NCBI GenBank assembly: GCA_025399215.1
Contig: MU621382.1
Location: 1-20,796 of the forward strand
Source of the DNA: Globomyces pollinis-pini
Lineage: Eukaryota; Chytridiomycota; Chytridiomycetes; Rhizophydiales; Globomycetaceae
Direction: 5' to 3'
Length of the DNA: 20,796 nt
Part shown: one piece after another, positions 2,303-20,796 of the stretch
Layout of the letters: each line of letters opens with the position of its first letter
Position numbering within the stretch: the first letter of the stretch is position 1
The notes under the pieces: generated by a model
What the model was told of the DNA's origin: nothing
Seen by the model: only the letters and a program-made list of their open reading frames with translations
Databases searched by the model: none
Position numbers and translations under genes: made by a program

Positions 2303-5300
2303 TCAATTAAATGCTTGTGATAATCGAGTATCACCACGCAATTTGGAATCCAATTCGATGTATCGTTCAGGGGCAGAATCTTTATGCTAAAAGTGAATCA
2401 ATTTCATAATACCTTTGCCAACCTTTTTTCAAGTATATGCATTCGGAAGAGGGCATCATTACAGAATTTAACGTAGGCATCTGTTTCTTCCACTAATGGT
2501 TAGTAGAATTTGGTTTACCGGTCATCGAATCGGCATTGCGAGAATAGGCGAGTTGTCGACGTTGATATTCACCTTGCACATCATCAAGCCGACCTTGAAT
2601 AATCGATGCCTTTTCCACCAATCTTTCACGTAAAGATTTCAAACATGCATCTTTTGCAGCAAGCATTTCGTCCTTTGTAAGATTGTTAGGATCTTCCTGT
2701 ATTGTTAGGTGTATAGTGTTACATAGTTGATTAGGAATGGACTCAAATAATCAATCTCTACTGTCTTTTGACTCTCTTCGACTCCATTTGTATGGTTCTC
2801 TGGTCCTTGGTCATCGACTGGTACACTCTACGAATCAGTACCAACCTCATCATTACTGTATCATTACGAATAGTATCGTAAATGGAAATTGCCAAATCAA
2901 CATCTTTCTCTTCTGAACCCCTCAAGGATAGTATATCACTCAATTCACGCTCATATATTTTAATAGCTTGGAGAAACAATTGCTCGGTTCGGAATAGATC
3001 AGTCAACTGACTAAATAAATGTTGTTTCTTCATTGGTTTTTGATACGGATCGACCTTTAATAAATACATTTTCGGATTACCTAGAATAAATCTTCACCAG
3101 CATTACCTTAGCATTGAATCAATACTTACTGATAAAAAATACCTAAATTGAGCTGAAAAACAATCGTACCTGGAATTCTTGAGTGATATCCAATACTTGG
3201 CCTTTCTGATCCGCAGCTGGTTTACGAAATTCGCGATAAGAAGCAACAATTCTCCCTGGCCCTAAATGGAACACAACACGGATTTTATCATCTTTGATAA
3301 AGTAGGTTTTTTTATATATATCCTGATCGCTGGGTATAGGTGAAGGTAAGAATTTTTCTGTCATTTTTTGGATTGATGTGCGATTGTTGTCGGAAGTGAG
3401 ATCGTAAGTGATGCTACGGTAGTTTAATCGGTCATCTCGGTCTTCGAATGTGTAAATCACCTACGAATGAGCATATATATTTCAGTTACCTGTCATTAAA
3501 TCAGTTTGATTAGTGTACCTTGTATAAGGAATTAAAATAATAATTACCTATTATAGAAAGTTAATGATACAAACAAACCTTTCTCGGTTCTTCAACTCGC
3601 TTAACTAGTCCATCAGGTCGAGCACTTCCGTAAAAGATCATCTCCTTTGTCTGCCCATTGATAAGAATATGTTCCTTCAAACCATGGCTACGACCAGGTT
3701 TGAAAAATTCGTGGATCACATCATTAACACGTACACGTTGAATGAGTTTGTCCCTAGAATGAGATATATGAATGAAGATACTTGCGGTTGTCGTACATTT
3801 CCAACACCATTCCTGGGTACTTTTTATCGGAATCGAGGAAAGTGATACGGGTGGTCATACCGTCAGTACGGTAATATTCTGCGAAAATCTCTTTTTTGGC
3901 ATTACGATAGTAGACTGTTTTGCCACCTGTAGGACACTTGGATTCAAATTGTTCTTGGGTGATGTTAAGTTGACTAACCCAACTAGGTGGTAAATCGATG
4001 ATTTCTGTGAGTTTGTCTTCATCTTCATCTTCGTCTTCTTCTTCATTCTCATCTTTTGTTTTTTTCATTCCTGGTTGAGCATTATCAAGCAAAACAAATT
4101 CCCACTTGACATTGTCACCAAGATCAAAAGAAATACCCTAATATTACAGTTAGCCCAGAAATTTACCCTAAGACCGTCGTAACAGATTTGCATATTGACC
4201 CAGTAATTGGTTGCGCTCCATACGCTTTCTACCCCGAGGTAGTCTGCCTTTTCACAATCGTAGATTTTACCGGTGGTTGCTTCAATGAAAAAAGCTTCCG
4301 AGATTTCTCGTTTACCCGGAAGCACTAATACCCAAGCATGAATACGTAATCCCTTTAATTCATCGTCTTCTTCTTCAACTGGTTTCTAATCAGGTTAGTA
4401 ATAAGCGGATAAATGTAATGGTAAAACAAATGAAAATCCAAAATCAACTTAGGTGATTATAATGTCCCTGCTGCTAGTTTATCAACTTACATTTAACTCC
4501 AAATCTCGGAGTCTTTGTTCTTCCTTTAATTTCAGTTCCATGATTTTTTGTTCTTGTTTAATGATAAACTGACTCTTAAGCTGCTTGGGGGGCTTAACTC
4601 TGTACTTAAGATTAGTAACAGGCTCCTTAGTATTCACTGCTACTTCCACTTTCTTGAACGGATTTGGCACGAAATCTTGTAGTTCATTAGCATTAGTTTT
4701 GCTCTGATCCACTAAAGTAAAACTTTTGGATGCATATCCCGACACAACGTACGCATCATATCCAACTGAGGTTAGGTATTATCATTACCTCCAATTAAGA
4801 GTGAAGTTAGAAGGTTGGCCATATCGAACGGATTTCCACGTTGCATGGCGAGTGTGTATGTTGGGGAGTTGAGATGTGTAGGCTGTACGTTAGAGAATTT
4901 GTGATACCAGTTCATGTGGTGGTGATAGAGGTGTGTATTCAATAAAATCCGAGACAAATGAAGCACAACTTCTGTAGTCGTATAACTGCTTGAATTTCAT
5001 TTGAGTGGGTCTAATAGTACTGCATACAAATTTCTAAAGATGTTAGAAAGGAGTATTAGGTTAGGTAGATATTAATACAAATACGAATCGTGTTAAAGGT
5101 TTTTGTGATGATAGAAAAAGTGTTTTTAATGTTAATGAATGTTAAATCTGATGAGGTGTGATGGACAAAAACAATCTGAGATGTTCAAATACCTTAACAC
5201 CGAATTCGTTGGGTCTGGATAAGCAAAGTTTCTTCCTTCCTGGGTAAATCTGAGTATATTGACGGTCAAAGTTTTCACTACAATAAGAATCAAGCGAGTA

Positions 5301-5592
5301 CAAACATGTATTGAATGATGAGCAATTCTTTTGCAGAGTTTGAGTAATAAGAGGGAGGAACGAGAGATTTATCGAGCAATGATAGCTTAAGTTTTTCTTT
5401 TCTCAGTTGGTCTTGGTCAAAATAAGATTGTTCGTGATTCTCTAGAGTTTCGATGAAATCAGAATTTTCTTTTGACAATGGCTGAGGCAATGTAGGTTGC
5501 TGATTTTCATCAATCAACTCCTCCTGTACTTCATCCTGGATCAATTCCAACTGGTCCTCTGCAATGAGAGTCTTTGATACTTCAGCAATCAT
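2303..5592 (-). CDS. DRC7: Dynein regulatory complex subunit 7 (DRC7/CCDC135), 14 exons, about 850 aa
   Basis: DRC7 is part of the nexin-dynein regulatory complex that links outer doublets in motile cilia. Exons in transcript order: 5592-5306, 5277-5193, 5033-4908, 4882-4789, 4765-4491, 4385-4167, 4137-3782, 3753-3579, 3460-3170, 3054-2857, 2827-2723, 2696-2519, 2492-2413, 2386-2303. All phases match. Family landmarks in order are ENFDRQY, CSTIRPTQMKF, CASFVSDF, a transglutaminase-like core RGNPFDMANLL then GYDAYVVSGYA, HAWVLVLPGKR (His305), NYWVNMQ, an acidic stretch before LPPSWVSQLNI, FFKPGRSHGL, and C-terminal coiled coil. The length fits the family (about 870 aa in human). The core has Pro184 where, as I recall, animal orthologs have cysteine. 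The join at 2828-2856 is the least certain. The gene is divergent from NMA111. Confidence 0.93.
3055..3169 (-). other. Tandem intron array, four GT-AG units (DRC7 intron 9)
   Basis: The 115-nt intron between the exons ending at 3170 and starting at 3054 divides without remainder into four units, read on the minus strand: 3169-3143 (27 nt), 3142-3107 (36 nt), 3106-3081 (26 nt) and 3080-3055 (26 nt). Each unit starts GTA and ends AG, so all inner borders read AG|GT. The flanking exons also end CAG and begin GTC. The outer join is fixed by protein homology (TQEFQ followed by VDPYQ) and by phase 0 on both sides. Confidence 0.8.
3461..3578 (-). other. Tandem intron array, four GT-AG units (DRC7 intron 8)
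   Basis: The 118-nt intron between VEEPRK and VIYTFED divides exactly into units at 3578-3548 (31 nt), 3547-3519 (29 nt), 3518-3490 (29 nt) and 3489-3461 (29 nt). Each begins GT and ends AG with no base between units. The upstream exon ends AAG and the downstream exon begins GTG. The units are AT-rich but not obvious copies of each other. No CTAAC branch motif is present. Confidence 0.8.
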
Positions 5593-5662: not shown

Positions 5663-8600
5663 ATGGAACCGAATAAAAGGATGCGAATTGACGATCAGAT
5701 TTCACAGGACTTGGATGTACCATGCCTTAATGCAGTCGATGCTGAAGCCATTAACAATTCAAATACTTCATTAAGATGGTTCAATTCTCTGCAACTAGCT
5801 GTTAAAGCAATCGTGTCCATTCGTTTCTCTCAAGTTGCTGCTTTCGATACAGAACCAGCTACTTCTTCTGAAGCTACCGGTTTTGTCGTCGATAAAGATA
5901 GAGGCATTATCCTCACAAATAGGCATGTTGCTTGTAGTGGTCCCTTTGTAGGTGACGCTATCTGGCATAATCATGAAGAAGTTGAGGGTATCTTTAAATT
6001 CATTCACTCTAGTCTTTCCTATTTATAGAGATCCTGTATGATAATCTTGCTCACTTTTTAGATTCACGACTTTGGGTACCTCTTTGCTCTAACTTTAGGT
6101 ATGAATTCACTGCTCATTTACATATTCGTTTTCTGCGCATTATATTTTCGTTCTCGCATTCCAGCATTTTACCCTTATTAAAATACACCACCACGTACAC
6201 TCATACCATACATCTTGAACACAATTATCCTACCATATATTTTTATGCACAATCAATCTAACCACAGGTTCTTGAAATTTGATCCGAAAAAACTAAAATA
6301 CATGCAAGTATCTGATATCCCTCTCAGCCCCGAAAACGCAAAAGTAGGACTAGACATCAGAGTAGTTGGGTAATTCCTCATATCTCATTCCTAGTAATGA
6401 TGCTGGTGAAAAACTATCCATCTTGGCTGGATCTTTGTCCCGATTAGACCGAAATGCCCCTGATTATGGCGAATTAACTGTTTGTTTAATATTTCTCATC
6501 TTAGTATAATGATTTTAATACGTATTTCTTGTCTTACTTATTGTAGCTTTTATCTTCAAGCCGCTTCCAGCACAAGGTACGTTTTATGAAAACTCTAGAA
6601 CTTTCTTCAAATCACCAAAGCGAATCTTCAGAATGTTGTAACAGCCTTAATGTATTTCTTGTTTGAAGTTGCAACATATGAGGATATACATTTTGTTTAA
6701 TCACTTGCAAAACCTTTTTGTTTTCTTGAATTACTTTGGCAATCACTGAATGTGCTATGTCTTTCTTTATAGTCGCCAAAGGTGATCCTTTTTTGTAAAT
6801 CTCTCTTGACTTTATAAATTGACCCTAAGTTTGGTTCCTTTTATGATTACTACGAACATGCTAACCATAGTGGTGGTTCTTCTGGCTCACCTGTGCTAAA
6901 CATTGATGGGCATGCTGTTGGATTGCAGGCTGGTGGCCATACCAAAGCTGCTACCGATTTCTTTTTTCCATTGGATCGTGTTAAACGAGTTTTGGGATTA
7001 ATTCAAAAAGGTTGGTTTCGATGTTGCTGATTTTTAGGTACGTGCGGTTTGGACCACTAAATTGCATTGTAGGGCACACTGTTACTCGTGGTACTATTCA
7101 AGTCCATTTCACGTATCATCAAATAATATTTACAGTTAGTCATCGTCCATTTGATCAAGTTCGCAGATTAGGATTACGGGATTCTGTGGAAAAAAAGGTA
7201 GATTCAAATCATTTTAATTACAACTTAGGTATTGTAGTGTTTATTTACACCAGATACGACTATATGATCCGAAAGAAATTGGAATGTTGGTTGCGGAGAC
7301 CGTATTACCAAAAGGACCTGGCTCGTTCTTTCTGCAAGAGAGTGACATTCTTGTCAGCATCAATAACCAGATCGTAACTAAATTCGTTCCCTTAGAAGAT
7401 TACCTGGATTCAAAGTAACTTATATTACCAAATGATTGATACTAGTGTTGGAAAAACGATTCAGTTCACAATCGAACGTGGTGGAGAGGAACTAACATTT
7501 GATATTATCGTACAAGACTTACATTCAATGTAAGATACTGTGACTGATATATAGTACTCCAGATCGGTATTTGCAAATTGGTGGTGGAACATTAAACAAT
7601 GTTTCTTATCAACTGAGCAGACAGTTCTGCCTTCCAGCACAAGGTGTGTTTGTATCAGATCCAGCGGGCATGTTTAGATTAGACGGGACGGCAGATTCTG
7701 GTTGGATTATTGATACAGTTGATTGTCAACCCACACATAACCTTGACGAGTTCATATCCGTTTTCCAAACAATACCTGGTTAGTGTATTCAAATTCATGT
7801 TAGATTATTCCCGTGTATCAATCACATATTATTCTATTGGAGATGTGCATACGAAGCATATCACGATTGTGAGTGTGGATCGACATTGGTATCCGTTTCG
7901 ATTGGCAGTTCGTAATGATACTACTGGGCTATGGGACTTTACTGACTTAGGACCTCCAATCCCTCGCAAACCTATTCAACCCTCTAATGCGACCTTTCCT
8001 GAACTAGATAGTAGTTTGGGTGTTTCTAGATCCTTACTCAATTCGTTTGTCAAAGTTACCATGACTATTCCATGTCGTATTGACGGGTACCCAAAATCGA
8101 GGGTAAGGTTTGAATACATTTATGTATAGAAAGTTGGAGCGGGGTTAGTAGTGAATGTTAGCATGGGCTTGGTGTTGGTATCGAAACATGTTGTTCCTTT
8201 CTCAATTGGTAATGGTATTTATTAGTTTATCCTAGGTGATGTACTGTTAACGTTTGCAGATTCAATCGTCATCCCTGGAACAGTTATTTTTTCACACCCA
8301 ACCCATAATATCGCCATTGTATCGTATAACCCAAAACATATTGGAACAACTCCGGTTCATGCTGCGCCTATCTCCAATCAACCGTTAGTACAAGGACATA
8401 AAGTTACTTTAGTAGCTTACAATTTAAACCAACGGCCAGGTTTTTTTAATGTCTTTAATTTATAGTATGTATTGAGACAACTGTAACTGATATTGCCATT
8501 GCCAATATTCCTCAAAATTCCATCCCGCGATTTCGTGCAGTGAATTTCAGTAATTTGGCTTTTATAATTCTCTAGATGCCATTACACTTGATACACCTGT

Positions 8601-9729: not shown

Positions 9730-10539
9730 ATGGGTGCTGGCAAATGGACACCAGATGATGATATGACATGGCATTGCTCATGCGTCTATGGATTTTTTTG
9801 GATATTCACCATTCTAGTCGAAACAACCTTTCGATATAAATTCAATCTATTTTGGAATGTCGTGGTAGTTGCAACATTATGTAATGTCGTTAAGCTAGTG
9901 TTGGTGATTCGATATAGTGAAATGATTCGATGGCATCAAGCAGAACCTAATCTTGTTGCATATGGTTATCAAATCTATGCAATTTATGAAATTGTGAATA
10001 TCTTTGTTCATGTATTGAAATGTTTTGGAATGTATCAACGTAAACGTAGTATTTGTCCATCAGATGGTTGGACGGATATCATTGTTTTGATATTCACTAC
10101 CTTGGTTTCTATTTCATCATCACTTGTTTGTTATTTTAATATCAATGTGGGATGTTGGGCAGTCAGCAATCCTATCCAAGCGATATCATTAATTACTACA
10201 GTAGGTTATTTCGATTTTTATTATGTATATCTTGTTTTTATTGGAATCAATCGTAGAAAAATTGATCGTGAAGTATTACAAGTATTGATGCCAACGATTT
10301 GGACAACTTTAGCATCTTTGGTATACACAGGTTGTTGTTTGATATACCGTCAAGGAGGAGCTGATTTTTATGTGAATGCATTATGGAATTTCGCATCAGT
10401 TTTAATTCCTTTGGTAACCATTCAAAGTTGTATATCAAGTAATTTGGGAATGTTTATGGCAAAAGTTGAAAGTGAAAAGAAGAGTCAATTAAAAACAAAT
10501 CAACCTTCTAGTAATCGAATAGAACTCAGTCCACAATAG
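9730..10539 (+). CDS. Seven-helix membrane protein, paralog 1, 269 aa, intronless
   Basis: Single exon. The N-terminus carries a family signature, W6-T-x-D-D-x-x-T-W14-H-C-S-C-V, followed by about seven hydrophobic helices (roughly 18-34, 42-60, 84-104, 115-135, 147-169, 183-207, 216-236) and a polar, Ser/Lys-rich tail of about 30 residues. Blocks shared with the copy at 12653 include RYSEMIRWH, VLKC.GM.QRKR, TTVGYFDFYYVYL, LQVLMP.IWT and SVLIPLVTIQSCIS. The topology is like that of a receptor or transporter, but I see no GPCR DRY/NPxxY or opsin lysine motif, so no function is assigned. It lacks introns, unlike NMA111 just upstream. AATAAA at 10564-10569 may serve polyadenylation. Confidence 0.8.
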   Translation: MGAGKWTPDDDMTWHCSCVYGFFWIFTILVETTFRYKFNLFWNVVVVATLCNVVKLVLVIRYSEMIRWHQAEPNLVAYGYQIYAIYEIVNIFVHVLKCFGMYQRKRSICPSDGWTDIIVLIFTTLVSISSSLVCYFNINVGCWAVSNPIQAISLITTVGYFDFYYVYLVFIGINRRKIDREVLQVLMPTIWTTLASLVYTGCCLIYRQGGADFYVNALWNFASVLIPLVTIQSCISSNLGMFMAKVESEKKSQLKTNQPSSNRIELSPQ

Positions 10540-12652: not shown

Positions 12653-13474
12653 ATGACACCAGGAGTATGGACAAATGATGATAATGGAACGTGGCATTGT
12701 TCATGCGTCTTTTCTTTCTTCTGGTTAATCACAATACTAGTCGAAACAAGTTTTCGTTACAAGAGAAATGCAATGTGGAATATTGTGATTTTAGCAACCT
12801 TTGTCAGTTTAGCTAAAAACGTGATTATTATAAGATATAGTGAAATGATACGATGGCATTCAAATGATCCAGTGAAATTAGCTTATGGTTATGAATTATA
12901 CAAATATTTTGAATTCTTTCAAATCTTTCAACATGTATTGAAATGTATTGGAATGTTTCAACGAAAAAGAGTTGTAGCTCCATCACTTGGATTTACAGAT
13001 CATGCTGTATTGATTTTTACAACTTTGATTGCTGTTGGAGCAAGTTTGTTTTGTTTATTGGCACCAGGTATCACTTGTTGGGGTTGGAGTAGTCCTACGC
13101 TTGCTATTTCATTACTCACTACAGTAGGATACTTTGATTTTTATTATGTGTATCTTATCGTTCGTAAATTTGACAACAAACACAATCAAAGCACCATTTT
13201 ACAAGTATTGATGCCTGCTATTTGGACAGCACTCAATTCTATTATTTATTCAATTTGTTCCCTCATGTATCGTGAGGGACGAGCAGGATTCTATTCCAAT
13301 TCCATTTGGAATTTCACATCAGTGTTAATACCTTTGGTGACTATTCAAAGTTGTATATCTACAAACGTTGGTGCATTTATTCAACATCAGGCTAGTCGTA
13401 ATAGTCATAGTTTAGTTTCACATAAGAATGATGTAGATACTGGAGTGAAACCGCAGAGTTCCAAGGAGTTATAA
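12653..13474 (+). CDS. Seven-helix membrane protein, paralog 2, 273 aa, intronless
   Basis: Single exon and full-length partner of 9730-10539. It has the same N-terminal signature (W6, D9, D10, W14, H15, C16, C18), seven hydrophobic helices at matching positions, and the same core blocks including RYSEMIRWH, QRKR, TTVGYFDFYYVYL and SVLIPLVTIQSCIS. The C-terminal 35 residues are polar and diverge from paralog 1, as expected for a cytoplasmic tail. The loop after helix 4 differs (PGITCWGWSSPT versus NVGCWAVSNPI) but keeps a CW pair. The function is unrecognised. The strong conservation of helices against variable tails suggests functional constraint rather than decay. Confidence 0.8.
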   Translation: MTPGVWTNDDNGTWHCSCVFSFFWLITILVETSFRYKRNAMWNIVILATFVSLAKNVIIIRYSEMIRWHSNDPVKLAYGYELYKYFEFFQIFQHVLKCIGMFQRKRVVAPSLGFTDHAVLIFTTLIAVGASLFCLLAPGITCWGWSSPTLAISLLTTVGYFDFYYVYLIVRKFDNKHNQSTILQVLMPAIWTALNSIIYSICSLMYREGRAGFYSNSIWNFTSVLIPLVTIQSCISTNVGAFIQHQASRNSHSLVSHKNDVDTGVKPQSSKEL

Positions 13475-15403: not shown

Positions 15404-18400
15404 ATGACGATCATCAATTGGTTGAATTATATACACATCATTGTACACAATGAACTGGAAAGGAGAAGAAACGCGAAAGATAAAAAGAATAAAATCACTT
15501 CATTAACTCTTATGTTTGCAGGTAGACAACGACAAAATATCAAGAAAGAGTCTAAATCTCCTATTGCAGCAGCATTCCCTCAAATCGAAGGAAATTCAAA
15601 TTCAAATCGAGCGTCCACTATTGTCGAAACTGATGATGCTTCCAGTTTTCCTTCAAGTGTAACTGATATCATGAGTGTTGTTCGATTGAATTGGGATTTT
15701 ATGACTACCACTGAAGTATTCTTTTAATTGAATTGATAATAGTTTAATCCCATTCCATACGCATTATCACTTTTAGATGGAAGGTTTTTAATTCAATCAA
15801 TTTTAATGGTATAGTTCATTAGGAAGCGATTTTGAAGGGTTTTGTAAAGTTTATCAAGGTGTTGAAGTTGCTATGGATCAAATTGTCAATGATTATCATC
15901 AAGCTTTCAATAATGTGATTCAAAAATTCAGTTCAGTCGTTGATATTATTTCAGGTAACTATATGATATGAATGTAATGTTAAGGTATGTATCAATAAAC
16001 GTGTTGATATGGAAGGTGATTTTGATTTAATGTTCATGGTTAGATTCACAAATTCGCGTTGGTGGAATATCAACTGACTTGGAACATACCAAAGAATGGT
16101 TGGAATGCAAAAGATTTGATTTAATTCATTTATGGGTGAAAGCCGTACAACATAAAGAAATGAGTCGAATATTAGATATCATGTATTCATTAAAGTTAAT
16201 GAATAGAACTGAATTGGAATCTGTTGAAGTGAATTTAGTTCATTTGATTCAAGATCAAAATTATCTACAAGCTGTTCGAATACTGAATCATGCTGAAAAA
16301 CAAATTAGTGGTCCGGATTTGGAAGAAATTGGAGCATTGGATAATATTAGAGATAGGTTGAAAGAAATTAAAACTGTATAGTTTATTATAGTTTAATCTT
16401 GATAGTTATTGCATGATACATTAACTGGTGAATTACAATCTCATATTTATCTTGGTAATCGTTCAGCCATGGCAAGAATTGGAAAAGGTTTGATTGTTGA
16501 TAACTAATCATTAGATCCGTAAATGAAATGATCTAATTACTAGTCCATTAATGAATATTGAAACTTTGAATATTGGTATTCGAAATGAAAATTCATGATT
16601 AGATAATAGTAATCCAATTGATCCATTAAGGTTTCATAAAATTGATTTTTCAATTGATGGAGAGGATCCTGTCAATGTTTTCGATATTGATTCATATGCT
16701 TTAATGATTGAAGTAGTTGAAGGATTATTTCATCTGGGTTCATTATCAGATTCACTTATGGTATTTATATATCAAGAAATTAAACTATAGTTTTTAAAAG
16801 ATCGTATTAGAGTGGATATCTCAAGATTGGTTGGTGGTATCATTGATGAAATTGAACAAATGTTTGTTGATTTAAATTTAATTCTTTTAGTCAAACTCAA
16901 TCTATTGAAAAGGGTTTGAATAGTAGTGAAATTGCTGCTGAAGTTTATGCTGATCATGTCATCTTTAATATGTTATTACACAGTTTATTTCAAAAACTTC
17001 AAGCAGTATTAGATGGTCATTTGTTCTTGTTAGAATGTGTGGGTGGTTTCCAAGAGGTATAACAAAACAGGAATTTGATTTATTTTAGAAATCTGGTCAA
17101 CAATTTGGTTTTTATTATTAAAAAAAACTAATGATAATAGAAACGTATACGAGAAGAGAAGTGGGTATGTGTATTCAACATGAAATCAAATCATTACTTT
17201 ATGACTATATGACTGGAAGGGATCATTCATCTAAACTCTTCAGTCCAGCCATTGTAGTCTCTGAAATGATCAATGACACTAAATTATACAAAGACCGACC
17301 AAAAGTAATCATTGAATATTAACAAAAACATAAAGGTTCCAATTTATTTGAATTTAAAACCTGATGAATCAATCAAGAAGATTTATTTTGAATTACAACC
17401 AAATTCCATTAATGATTACACTAAAATATCTTTAAATGATAAATTTTCAAAGGTGAATGAAACGAGTCATAAAATATTGATCAATCCTACCCCTTCCAAT
17501 ATCATTATTGCTTACAAACCTGCCATGGAGTTTGTTTCAAATATGGAATTATCAGTAGCATCCAAATTAGGAAATTTTAAAGCATTCTTGGATGAATTTA
17601 TTTTTAATACTTACTTTCCAAGAATACAAGATCAAATATTGGCTTATTATCAAGTTCATATTAATGGTATTAATTATCGAATTTTATGATTAGGAGTGGA
17701 TGCATTCCAAGCGGATCGAATTCCAGAAGCACCATATCCATTAGTTAAAGTAATTTTTTATTAAATACTGATATGAAAGAGTGCCATGTCGGTCATATTG
17801 GCTACACATGGTATTTTACGTACCATTTGGTGTATGCCTGTACATCAAAATGAATTAATTAAATTTCTTGAATCATTACTCTTAAAATATTATGATAAAT
17901 GTTTTCAAAGATTTCGATGTAATGATTTCTTTTTAATGTTAGATTTGTTTTCTGGTGATGATACTGTTTCTGAAACGGAATCGAATAGTTCTACAGTGTT
18001 GAGTGTACAATGGGCAATGGATCCTGAAATTTCTGATGTTATATCGGATATCACTCACTTTTCAGCTAAAAAGGTTACCTTCCAAATTTGTTTATTTTAG
18101 ATTAATTATGATGTGAATCGAATCATGTATGAAAAGGTACATTTTCTTTGATTTAATATTAGGAAACACTAGTAGAATTGAAAAAGAAAGGAGAAAGAAG
18201 TTTTCATCGTAGTGAATTATTGTTGGATCCTAAAAAAATGCAATCTTTGGCACATTTGCTTTACAGTTTGGTATGATACATGGTTTGATCTCAATCGATA
18301 GGAATGGGTGTTGGATCAATTGAAATTTATCAGAGGGCAGAAACCAAGCAATGAATCATCAAATTCAATATTTTCAGTTAACTCAAAAGATATTATGGTA

Positions 18401-20695: not shown

Positions 20696-20796
20696 ATGCC
20701 AAGTGGAGCTTGGACAAATGATGATGATACTACTTGGCATTGTTCCTGCGTATTTGCTTTCTTTTGGATATTCACTATCCTGGTGGAAACATCCAT
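20696..20796 (+). CDS. Seven-helix membrane protein, paralog 3, N-terminus only
   Basis: The first 33 codons are present before the window ends. They carry the family signature at the same positions as the two complete copies: W6, TNDDDTTW14, HCSCVFAFFW, then TILVETS. No stop or frameshift is seen in this part. The upstream sequence has TCGCGTTC about 43 bases before the ATG, which overlaps the CGCGT core of the element found at the other two copies but is not identical to it. Confidence 0.75.
   Translation, partial: MPSGAWTNDDDTTWHCSCVFAFFWIFTILVETS

Follow-up and report, generated by a model that had tools for sequence, protein, structure and literature searches.

The window, that is, the whole stretch of 20,796 nt of the genome of the aquatic chytrid fungus Globomyces pollinis-pini (Rhizophydiales) analysed here, contains four arrays in which short introns lie back to back with no exon between them. 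Two of these arrays lie in a gene for DRC7 on the minus strand, one in a Sec8 gene and one in a protease-like gene. The features on which the following account relies are given below, and each intron unit of an array is called a tile.

2303..5592, minus strand: DRC7 gene, own ab initio model of 850 aa with 13 introns
3579..3753, minus strand: DRC7 exon 5′ of array 1, ending in AAG, phase 0 (gene model)
3548..3578, minus strand: DRC7 array 1, tile 1, 31 nt (sequence)
3519..3547, minus strand: DRC7 array 1, tile 2, 29 nt (sequence)
3490..3518, minus strand: DRC7 array 1, tile 3, 29 nt (sequence)
3461..3489, minus strand: DRC7 array 1, tile 4, 29 nt (sequence)
3170..3460, minus strand: DRC7 exon between arrays 1 and 2, starting with GTG and ending in CAG (gene model)
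3055..3169, minus strand: DRC7 array 2 (intron 9), 27+36+26+26 nt (AGGT chain and gene model)
7198..7253, plus strand: array of 31+25 nt in a gene with PDZ_1 and Trypsin_2 domains (gene model, Pfam)
15955..16043, plus strand: array of 30+31+28 nt in the Sec8 (exocyst) gene (AGGT chain and gene model)

The identity of DRC7 was established by the Pfam domains MORN_DRC7 and DRC7_C, which match the predicted protein, and by alignment of the best solved DRC7 chain over residues 21-847, which is free of gaps at the join of array 1. A protein search with DRC7 returned 455 related proteins among 7989 scored candidates, and a search of viral contigs for DRC7 relatives found none. The introns of the model measure, in order, 28, 159, 25, 23, 105, 29, 28, 118, 115, 29, 26, 26 and 26 nt. 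Array 1 is intron 8 of the 13, and the reverse complement of 3461-3578 can be cut without remainder into 31+29+29+29 nt with every tile running from GT to AG, as the first-pass annotation had described and as we confirmed on the sequence. Its exon flanks read ...CCG AGA AAG / GTG ATT TAC... in phase 0, so that the AAG and GTG exon ends given in the same annotation are also correct, while the exon upstream of array 2 ends in TTCCAG and the one downstream starts with GTCGAT. Since the reading frame requires it, array 1 must be removed whole, and the public DRC7 record P0001 joins EEPRK to VIYTF, which places the entire 118 nt outside the annotated mRNA; by joining FQ to VDPYQ the same record likewise leaves out array 2. 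Beside the arrays, DRC7 has ordinary long introns at 4490-4386 (105 nt) and 5192-5034 (159 nt), both on the minus strand. The 105-nt intron carries GTAAGT and TACTAAC, and such strong signals may mark a second, long class of introns. As a separate observation, P0001 (675 aa) is without about the first 170 residues of our own model, to which homologues align, and it also skips a conserved piece near residue 200.

In the Sec8 gene, whose name was tested in this way, the Pfam Sec8_N match runs across the array join. The protease-like gene with the PDZ_1 and Trypsin_2 domains is presumably Nma111-like. A further predicted array at 6076-6267 (tiles of 23 and 169 nt) was left out of the arrays counted below, its second member not being mini-sized. 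The Kappamyces record P0031 combines the DRC7 domains and Sec8_N (PF04048) in one protein of 1424 aa, and possibly results from two genes called as one in a conserved gene neighbourhood, DRC7 and Sec8 both being present in this window. Reading by eye also revealed three paralogous open frames on the plus strand (9731-10539, 12654-13474 and 20696-20796), apparently intronless, whose products are probably hydrophobic multi-pass membrane proteins, and an open frame at about 1300-1660 on the minus strand that reads like a basic helix-loop-helix protein.

To describe introns beyond the window, a sample of about 270 kb was used, consisting of the window and 250 kb fetched from the same genome, in which 13366 bases read N (931 on contig C1, 7608 on C4 and 4827 on C6). 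All gene models were our own ab initio predictions, and their intron length prior favours short introns. With this prior peaked at 28 nt, 483 of the 506 reliable introns were 39 nt or shorter, with a mode of 28 nt and none of 40-48 nt; with a flat prior the mode was again 27-28 nt, but only about half of 639 introns fell at 24-36 nt and gene models were often merged. To the extent that the genome favours very short introns, the earlier suggestion of a spliceosome with such a preference is supported. The sample contains 23 reliable introns of at least 45 nt; some may be model errors, and 12 lie in genes with scores of 90 or more. GTAAGT starts 4 of these 23, compared with 17 of 516 short introns.

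Alongside 516 reliable single introns, the sample contains 13 arrays with 42 tiles, nine of the arrays lying outside the window. Scaled to the 18.5-Mb genome, these counts correspond to roughly 940 arrays, or roughly 700 when the window is excluded. Whole arrays measure 53 to 289 nt. Although the gene finder permitted zero-length exons without any special reward, the models contain exon length 0 thirty times, while lengths of 1 to 9 nt occur 1, 0, 0, 1, 3, 1, 1, 1 and 3 times, respectively. Zero-length exons are therefore real and genome-wide, and to this extent the proposal that the logic of recursive splicing works here at miniature scale is upheld. If the arrays were made by chance AG/GT tetramers within AT-rich introns, a reading that we find scarcely credible, no such spike at length zero would be expected, nor would AGGT form chains. 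In the sample, chains of AGGT at 25-32 nt spacing reach at least two spacings from 16 starts and at least three from 6 starts, whereas the eleven remaining permutations of these four letters reach at least two from 0-4 starts and at least three from none. The enrichment concerns chains only: single pairs of AGGT at this spacing do not outnumber those of the permuted words (71 versus 28-155), as a chance origin would have it. Genome-wide, triple AGGT at 24-36 nt spacing gave 1041 matches, versus 305 for GAGT, 309 for TGAG, 387 for GTGA and 374 for AGTG, and this again argues against chance. The backward word TGGA gave 2385 matches to the same triple pattern, but it was not taken as a fair control because the sample contains it twice as often as AGGT (3174 versus 1559). 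Some of the AGGT triples listed are coding repeats by eye, for example C1:106153.

We then compared the tiles with ordinary introns; the tile-signal and junction counts pool the sample with the chosen loci described below, and exon-like AGGT chains were not removed from them. Tiles have a mean length of 29.04 nt (sd 2.73, n = 108), and single introns 28.35 nt (sd 2.91; KS p 0.17). The motif TRAY, its A lying 6-13 nt from the 3′ end, is found in 57 of 108 tiles, including 44 of the 80 that are not last in their array. Single introns have it in 322 of 516 cases and shuffles in about 25%; among the last tiles of the 13 sampled arrays the count is only 7 (0.54). At 60 junctions between dissimilar tiles the base at -3 is T in 40, A in 13, C in 5 and G in 2, and the base at +3 is A in 43, T in 13, G in 3 and C in 1. 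For AGGT in coding sequence the corresponding counts are C 85, A 165, G 75 and T 60 at -3, and T 114, G 136, A 57 and C 78 at +3, so the bases around tile junctions resemble splice sites and not coding AGGT. Taken together, the tiles are like the ordinary 28-nt introns of this genome in length and splice context, and carry the branch motif slightly less often.

Such constraint on signals within the tiles is the pattern that separate excision would produce. On this proposal, a spliceosome that copes well with introns of some 24-36 nt would excise each tile on its own, and each excision would leave an AG/GT that neighbouring tiles could still use as acceptor or donor. Any donor could then pair with any later acceptor, so all orders of removal would give the same mRNA, and the arrays would be expected to tolerate any removal order as well as partial damage. 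Alternatively, array 1 could be an ordinary 118-nt intron spliced in one step through its outermost sites, the internal AG/GT being inert leftovers. The EEPRK/VIYTF join of P0001 fits one step as well as four, one-step removal is mechanically conceivable given that DRC7 itself has single introns measuring 105 and 159 nt, and the 23 introns of at least 45 nt that have no mini-tiling indicate that the spliceosome is not confined to 40 nt in any strict sense, so that length alone is no bar to it. Inert sites should drift, however, whereas junctions, branch motifs and spacing stay intron-like between dissimilar tiles. Nor are the outer signals of the arrays stronger than elsewhere, with GTAAGT in 0 of 13 and CTAAC in 1 of 13, versus 17 and 32 of the 516 short single introns. 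We therefore regard one-step removal as improbable. The stepwise removal proposed in the first-pass annotation is in line with the internal signals that are kept, as it predicts, while the long introns of the same gene mean that DRC7 does not by itself demand it.

The arrays might also have nothing to do with splicing and be coding tandem repeats, or consist of DNA elements that leave the genome itself instead of the RNA. Ciliates excise short DNA elements from their genomes, and the tiles resemble these elements in length. One locus, L040 (C68:15700-16300), gives the coding version some substance: six 27-nt units, five of them near-identical, precede a short-chain dehydrogenase-like frame, and the first unit and the sequence after the repeat both begin GTAAAAGA. 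Between positions 204 and 341 this repeat is open in the frame of the following enzyme, and five in-frame ATGs lie within it, so L040, which our model calls an array and which had at first seemed a plain six-tile case, is treated as doubtful and may consist of coding repeats. For the arrays in general, both versions seem very improbable to us, because, for 40 of the 42 tiles of the 13 sampled arrays, retention of that one tile would cause a frameshift or bring in a stop, because the tiles carry branch motifs and splice context, and because the joined proteins align without gaps to their homologues.

The last point was examined on longer arrays. Loci L027-L038 were picked by eye from the AGGT triples as long or similar-looking, and L039 and L040 for similar tiles; having been chosen by eye, L027-L038 are no random sample. 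The longest chains comprise ten tiles (289 nt) in VPS24/CHMP3 (own model; L027, C4:30800-33000, minus strand), ten in PHYHD1 (C12), which were delimited by eye and whose array ends were confirmed by alignment, nine in a GDSL lipase-like gene and seven in an MCM gene (both own models). The joined VPS24, PHYHD1 and kinase proteins are gap-free at the join when aligned with solved homologues. The joined VPS24 aligns likewise to proteins of Boothiomyces, Terramyces, Kappamyces and Polyrhizophydium, the Kappamyces insert lying elsewhere. The public VPS24 record P0122 (158 aa) begins within tiles 7-8 of the ten-intron array, as matched by eye on the translation, and is without the conserved first 69 residues of VPS24. 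Judged from these alignments, the truncated model is an annotation error due to the array. Given that a public model starts inside an array here, similar arrays elsewhere may have been missed by annotation.

The origin of the arrays was approached through the exon flanks and the kinship of the tiles. In the sample, AG/GT exon flanks are found at 5 of 13 arrays and at 8 of 516 single introns (Fisher p 4e-6), and with the window left out at 3 of 9 and 7 of 471 (p 5e-4); the other 8 of the 13 arrays are without them. Direct repeats of at least 4 nt across the intron ends occur at 6 of 13 arrays versus 31 of 516 single introns. In PHYHD1 the second and third tiles have identical sequences; similarity also connects tiles 1 to 6, and there is a resemblance between tiles 1 and 8. 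Genome-wide, with up to 3 mismatches, the identical tile occurs only at those two places. Arrays on C8 (L034) and C11 (L036) also contain copies of neighbours, on a smaller scale than PHYHD1, and neighbouring units are kin at C12 (PHYHD1), C37, C60, C8 (L034), C11 (L036) and other places.

A pair test was carried out on 77 adjacent tile pairs at 51 loci, drawn from the 100 places listed of 238 matched. It leaves out 18 places on C1-C10, a region covered by the fetched loci, and C32:26306, C69:3199, C69:3203, C72:12821 and C73:10047, which were overlapping or exon-like by eye. Fourteen of the 77 pairs, from 8 of the 51 loci, lie above the 99th percentile of cross-contig pairs, where 0.5 would be expected. 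The search behind these places gave its 238 matches versus 70 in the backward control, and another narrower search gave 209 versus 119, the latter being the weaker contrast. Between different arrays, 24 of 2644 tile pairs exceeded the 99th percentile among the 15 arrays compared, which is background. A genome search with the L040 unit found it at three places, all within its own repeat. That neighbours in young arrays are copies of each other and that no sign of spread between arrays was seen favours local tandem duplication over a dispersing element. Demoting L040 did not alter the odds, since PHYHD1 and several further loci carry the case for duplication.

Kinship is by no means general. None of the tile pairs in the DRC7, VPS24 (10 tiles), GDSL (9) and MCM (7) arrays exceeds the 99th percentile, and 10 of the 15 arrays compared, the longest included, have no such pair. 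In DRC7 the most similar pair reaches at most the 95.5th percentile of background, so neither of its arrays tops the 99th. Steady duplication should leave young pairs, and their absence from the long arrays means that either old, static arrays or independent insertions have to be invoked. Such serial insertion, in which a reverse-spliced intron or an introner-like element would enter at AG/GT and recreate its target each time, would account for the enrichment of AG/GT flanks and for long arrays of mutually unrelated tiles. It is opposed by the background level of similarity between arrays, by the confinement of the identical PHYHD1 tile to its own array and of the L040 repeat, itself doubtful as an array, to its own place, and by the fact that recent neighbours copy each other. 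We consider it unlikely as a general account, though still the strongest of the competitors. The idea of the first-pass annotation that introns were received repeatedly at AG/GT is thus not borne out by the demonstrable recent cases, which are duplications in place of a resident intron, but may hold for both DRC7 arrays and for the 10 of 15 arrays in which tiles show no kinship.

Returning to local duplication, we propose that arrays lengthen by tandem duplication of whole introns, for which direct sequence evidence exists only in young arrays, and presumably also shorten. AG/GT repeats at the intron ends would help such duplication, and the duplicated tiles would then drift apart while their splice signals and length are kept. 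Judging from sequence evidence of this kind, we put the probability at roughly three in four that array 1 consists of four complete minimal introns and is one of several hundred arrays, with tiles that would be excised singly and arrays that would grow by local duplication. A more specific proposal, to which we give about even odds, is that intron copy number evolves like a short tandem repeat, by in-register duplication and deletion at AG/GT that would be invisible to the protein, the units being removed independently.

Among the matches listed in open-licence literature, no report of such mini-intron chains was found, and hundreds of chains of complete minimal introns with zero exon between them appear to be a new form of the arrangements compared below. 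The nearest comparison is recursive splicing, of which Drosophila Ubx is an example. Recursive splicing at ratchet points is described in Drosophila and human mainly for long introns. The likeness lies in the juxtaposition of acceptor and donor as AG/GT inside an intron, with the donor regenerated at each step, and this juxtaposition is present here. In contrast to the long introns described there, the arrays here measure tens to a few hundred nucleotides, their units of about 24-36 nt are complete introns, up to ten of them lie in a row at hundreds of places, and the steps need not run 5′ to 3′. According to PMC10809524, the human polyubiquitin gene UBC has tandem AGGT sites, each of which can serve as donor or acceptor, and expansion of repeat units that contain AGGT is proposed as a route to new introns. 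The tiles share with these dual-specific sites the same AGGT with donor and acceptor context, but the UBC units are, in the same text, coding ubiquitin monomers that are variably removed, while the tiles are non-coding, mostly not multiples of three in length, and all have to go.

Stwintrons are, in PMC9024468 and PMC7138796, adjacent U2 introns of fungi that need consecutive reactions, of which sequence-similar copies can multiply; a Lipomyces case can be removed in one or two steps. In a stwintron one intron splits a splice element of the other, which forces the order, whereas the tiles abut at AG/GT and each keeps its own GT and AG; among 117 stwintrons, PMC9024468 reports none that has AG upstream and GT downstream. 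Nested, stwintron-like parsing of the long introns was examined by eye and dropped. Identical introns multiplied in place by repeat expansion are described for Cryptococcus CNN00420 in PMC2395259. Those are distinct introns in a repetitive region of a gene that has six, while the repeated unit here consists of nothing but the intron, and exons between units are lacking. Introners (PMC9860276) multiply within one genome and insert in many genes; near-identical copies in unrelated genes were not found here in searches with two tiles, one of them doubtful, or among the 15 arrays compared.

Exact gain and loss of introns and their piecewise removal by the spliceosome are old questions with few tractable systems. 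This one small fungal genome supplies arrays by the hundred, and as the units measure about 29 nt, a single read could span a whole array and show every intermediate. Because arrays range from identical copies to unrelated tiles, the birth, ageing and loss of introns could be studied side by side. If the proposed reading is true, G. pollinis-pini would possess a local mechanism that adds and removes introns exactly and needs no transposon, at work at hundreds of loci of all ages with up to ten units per site.
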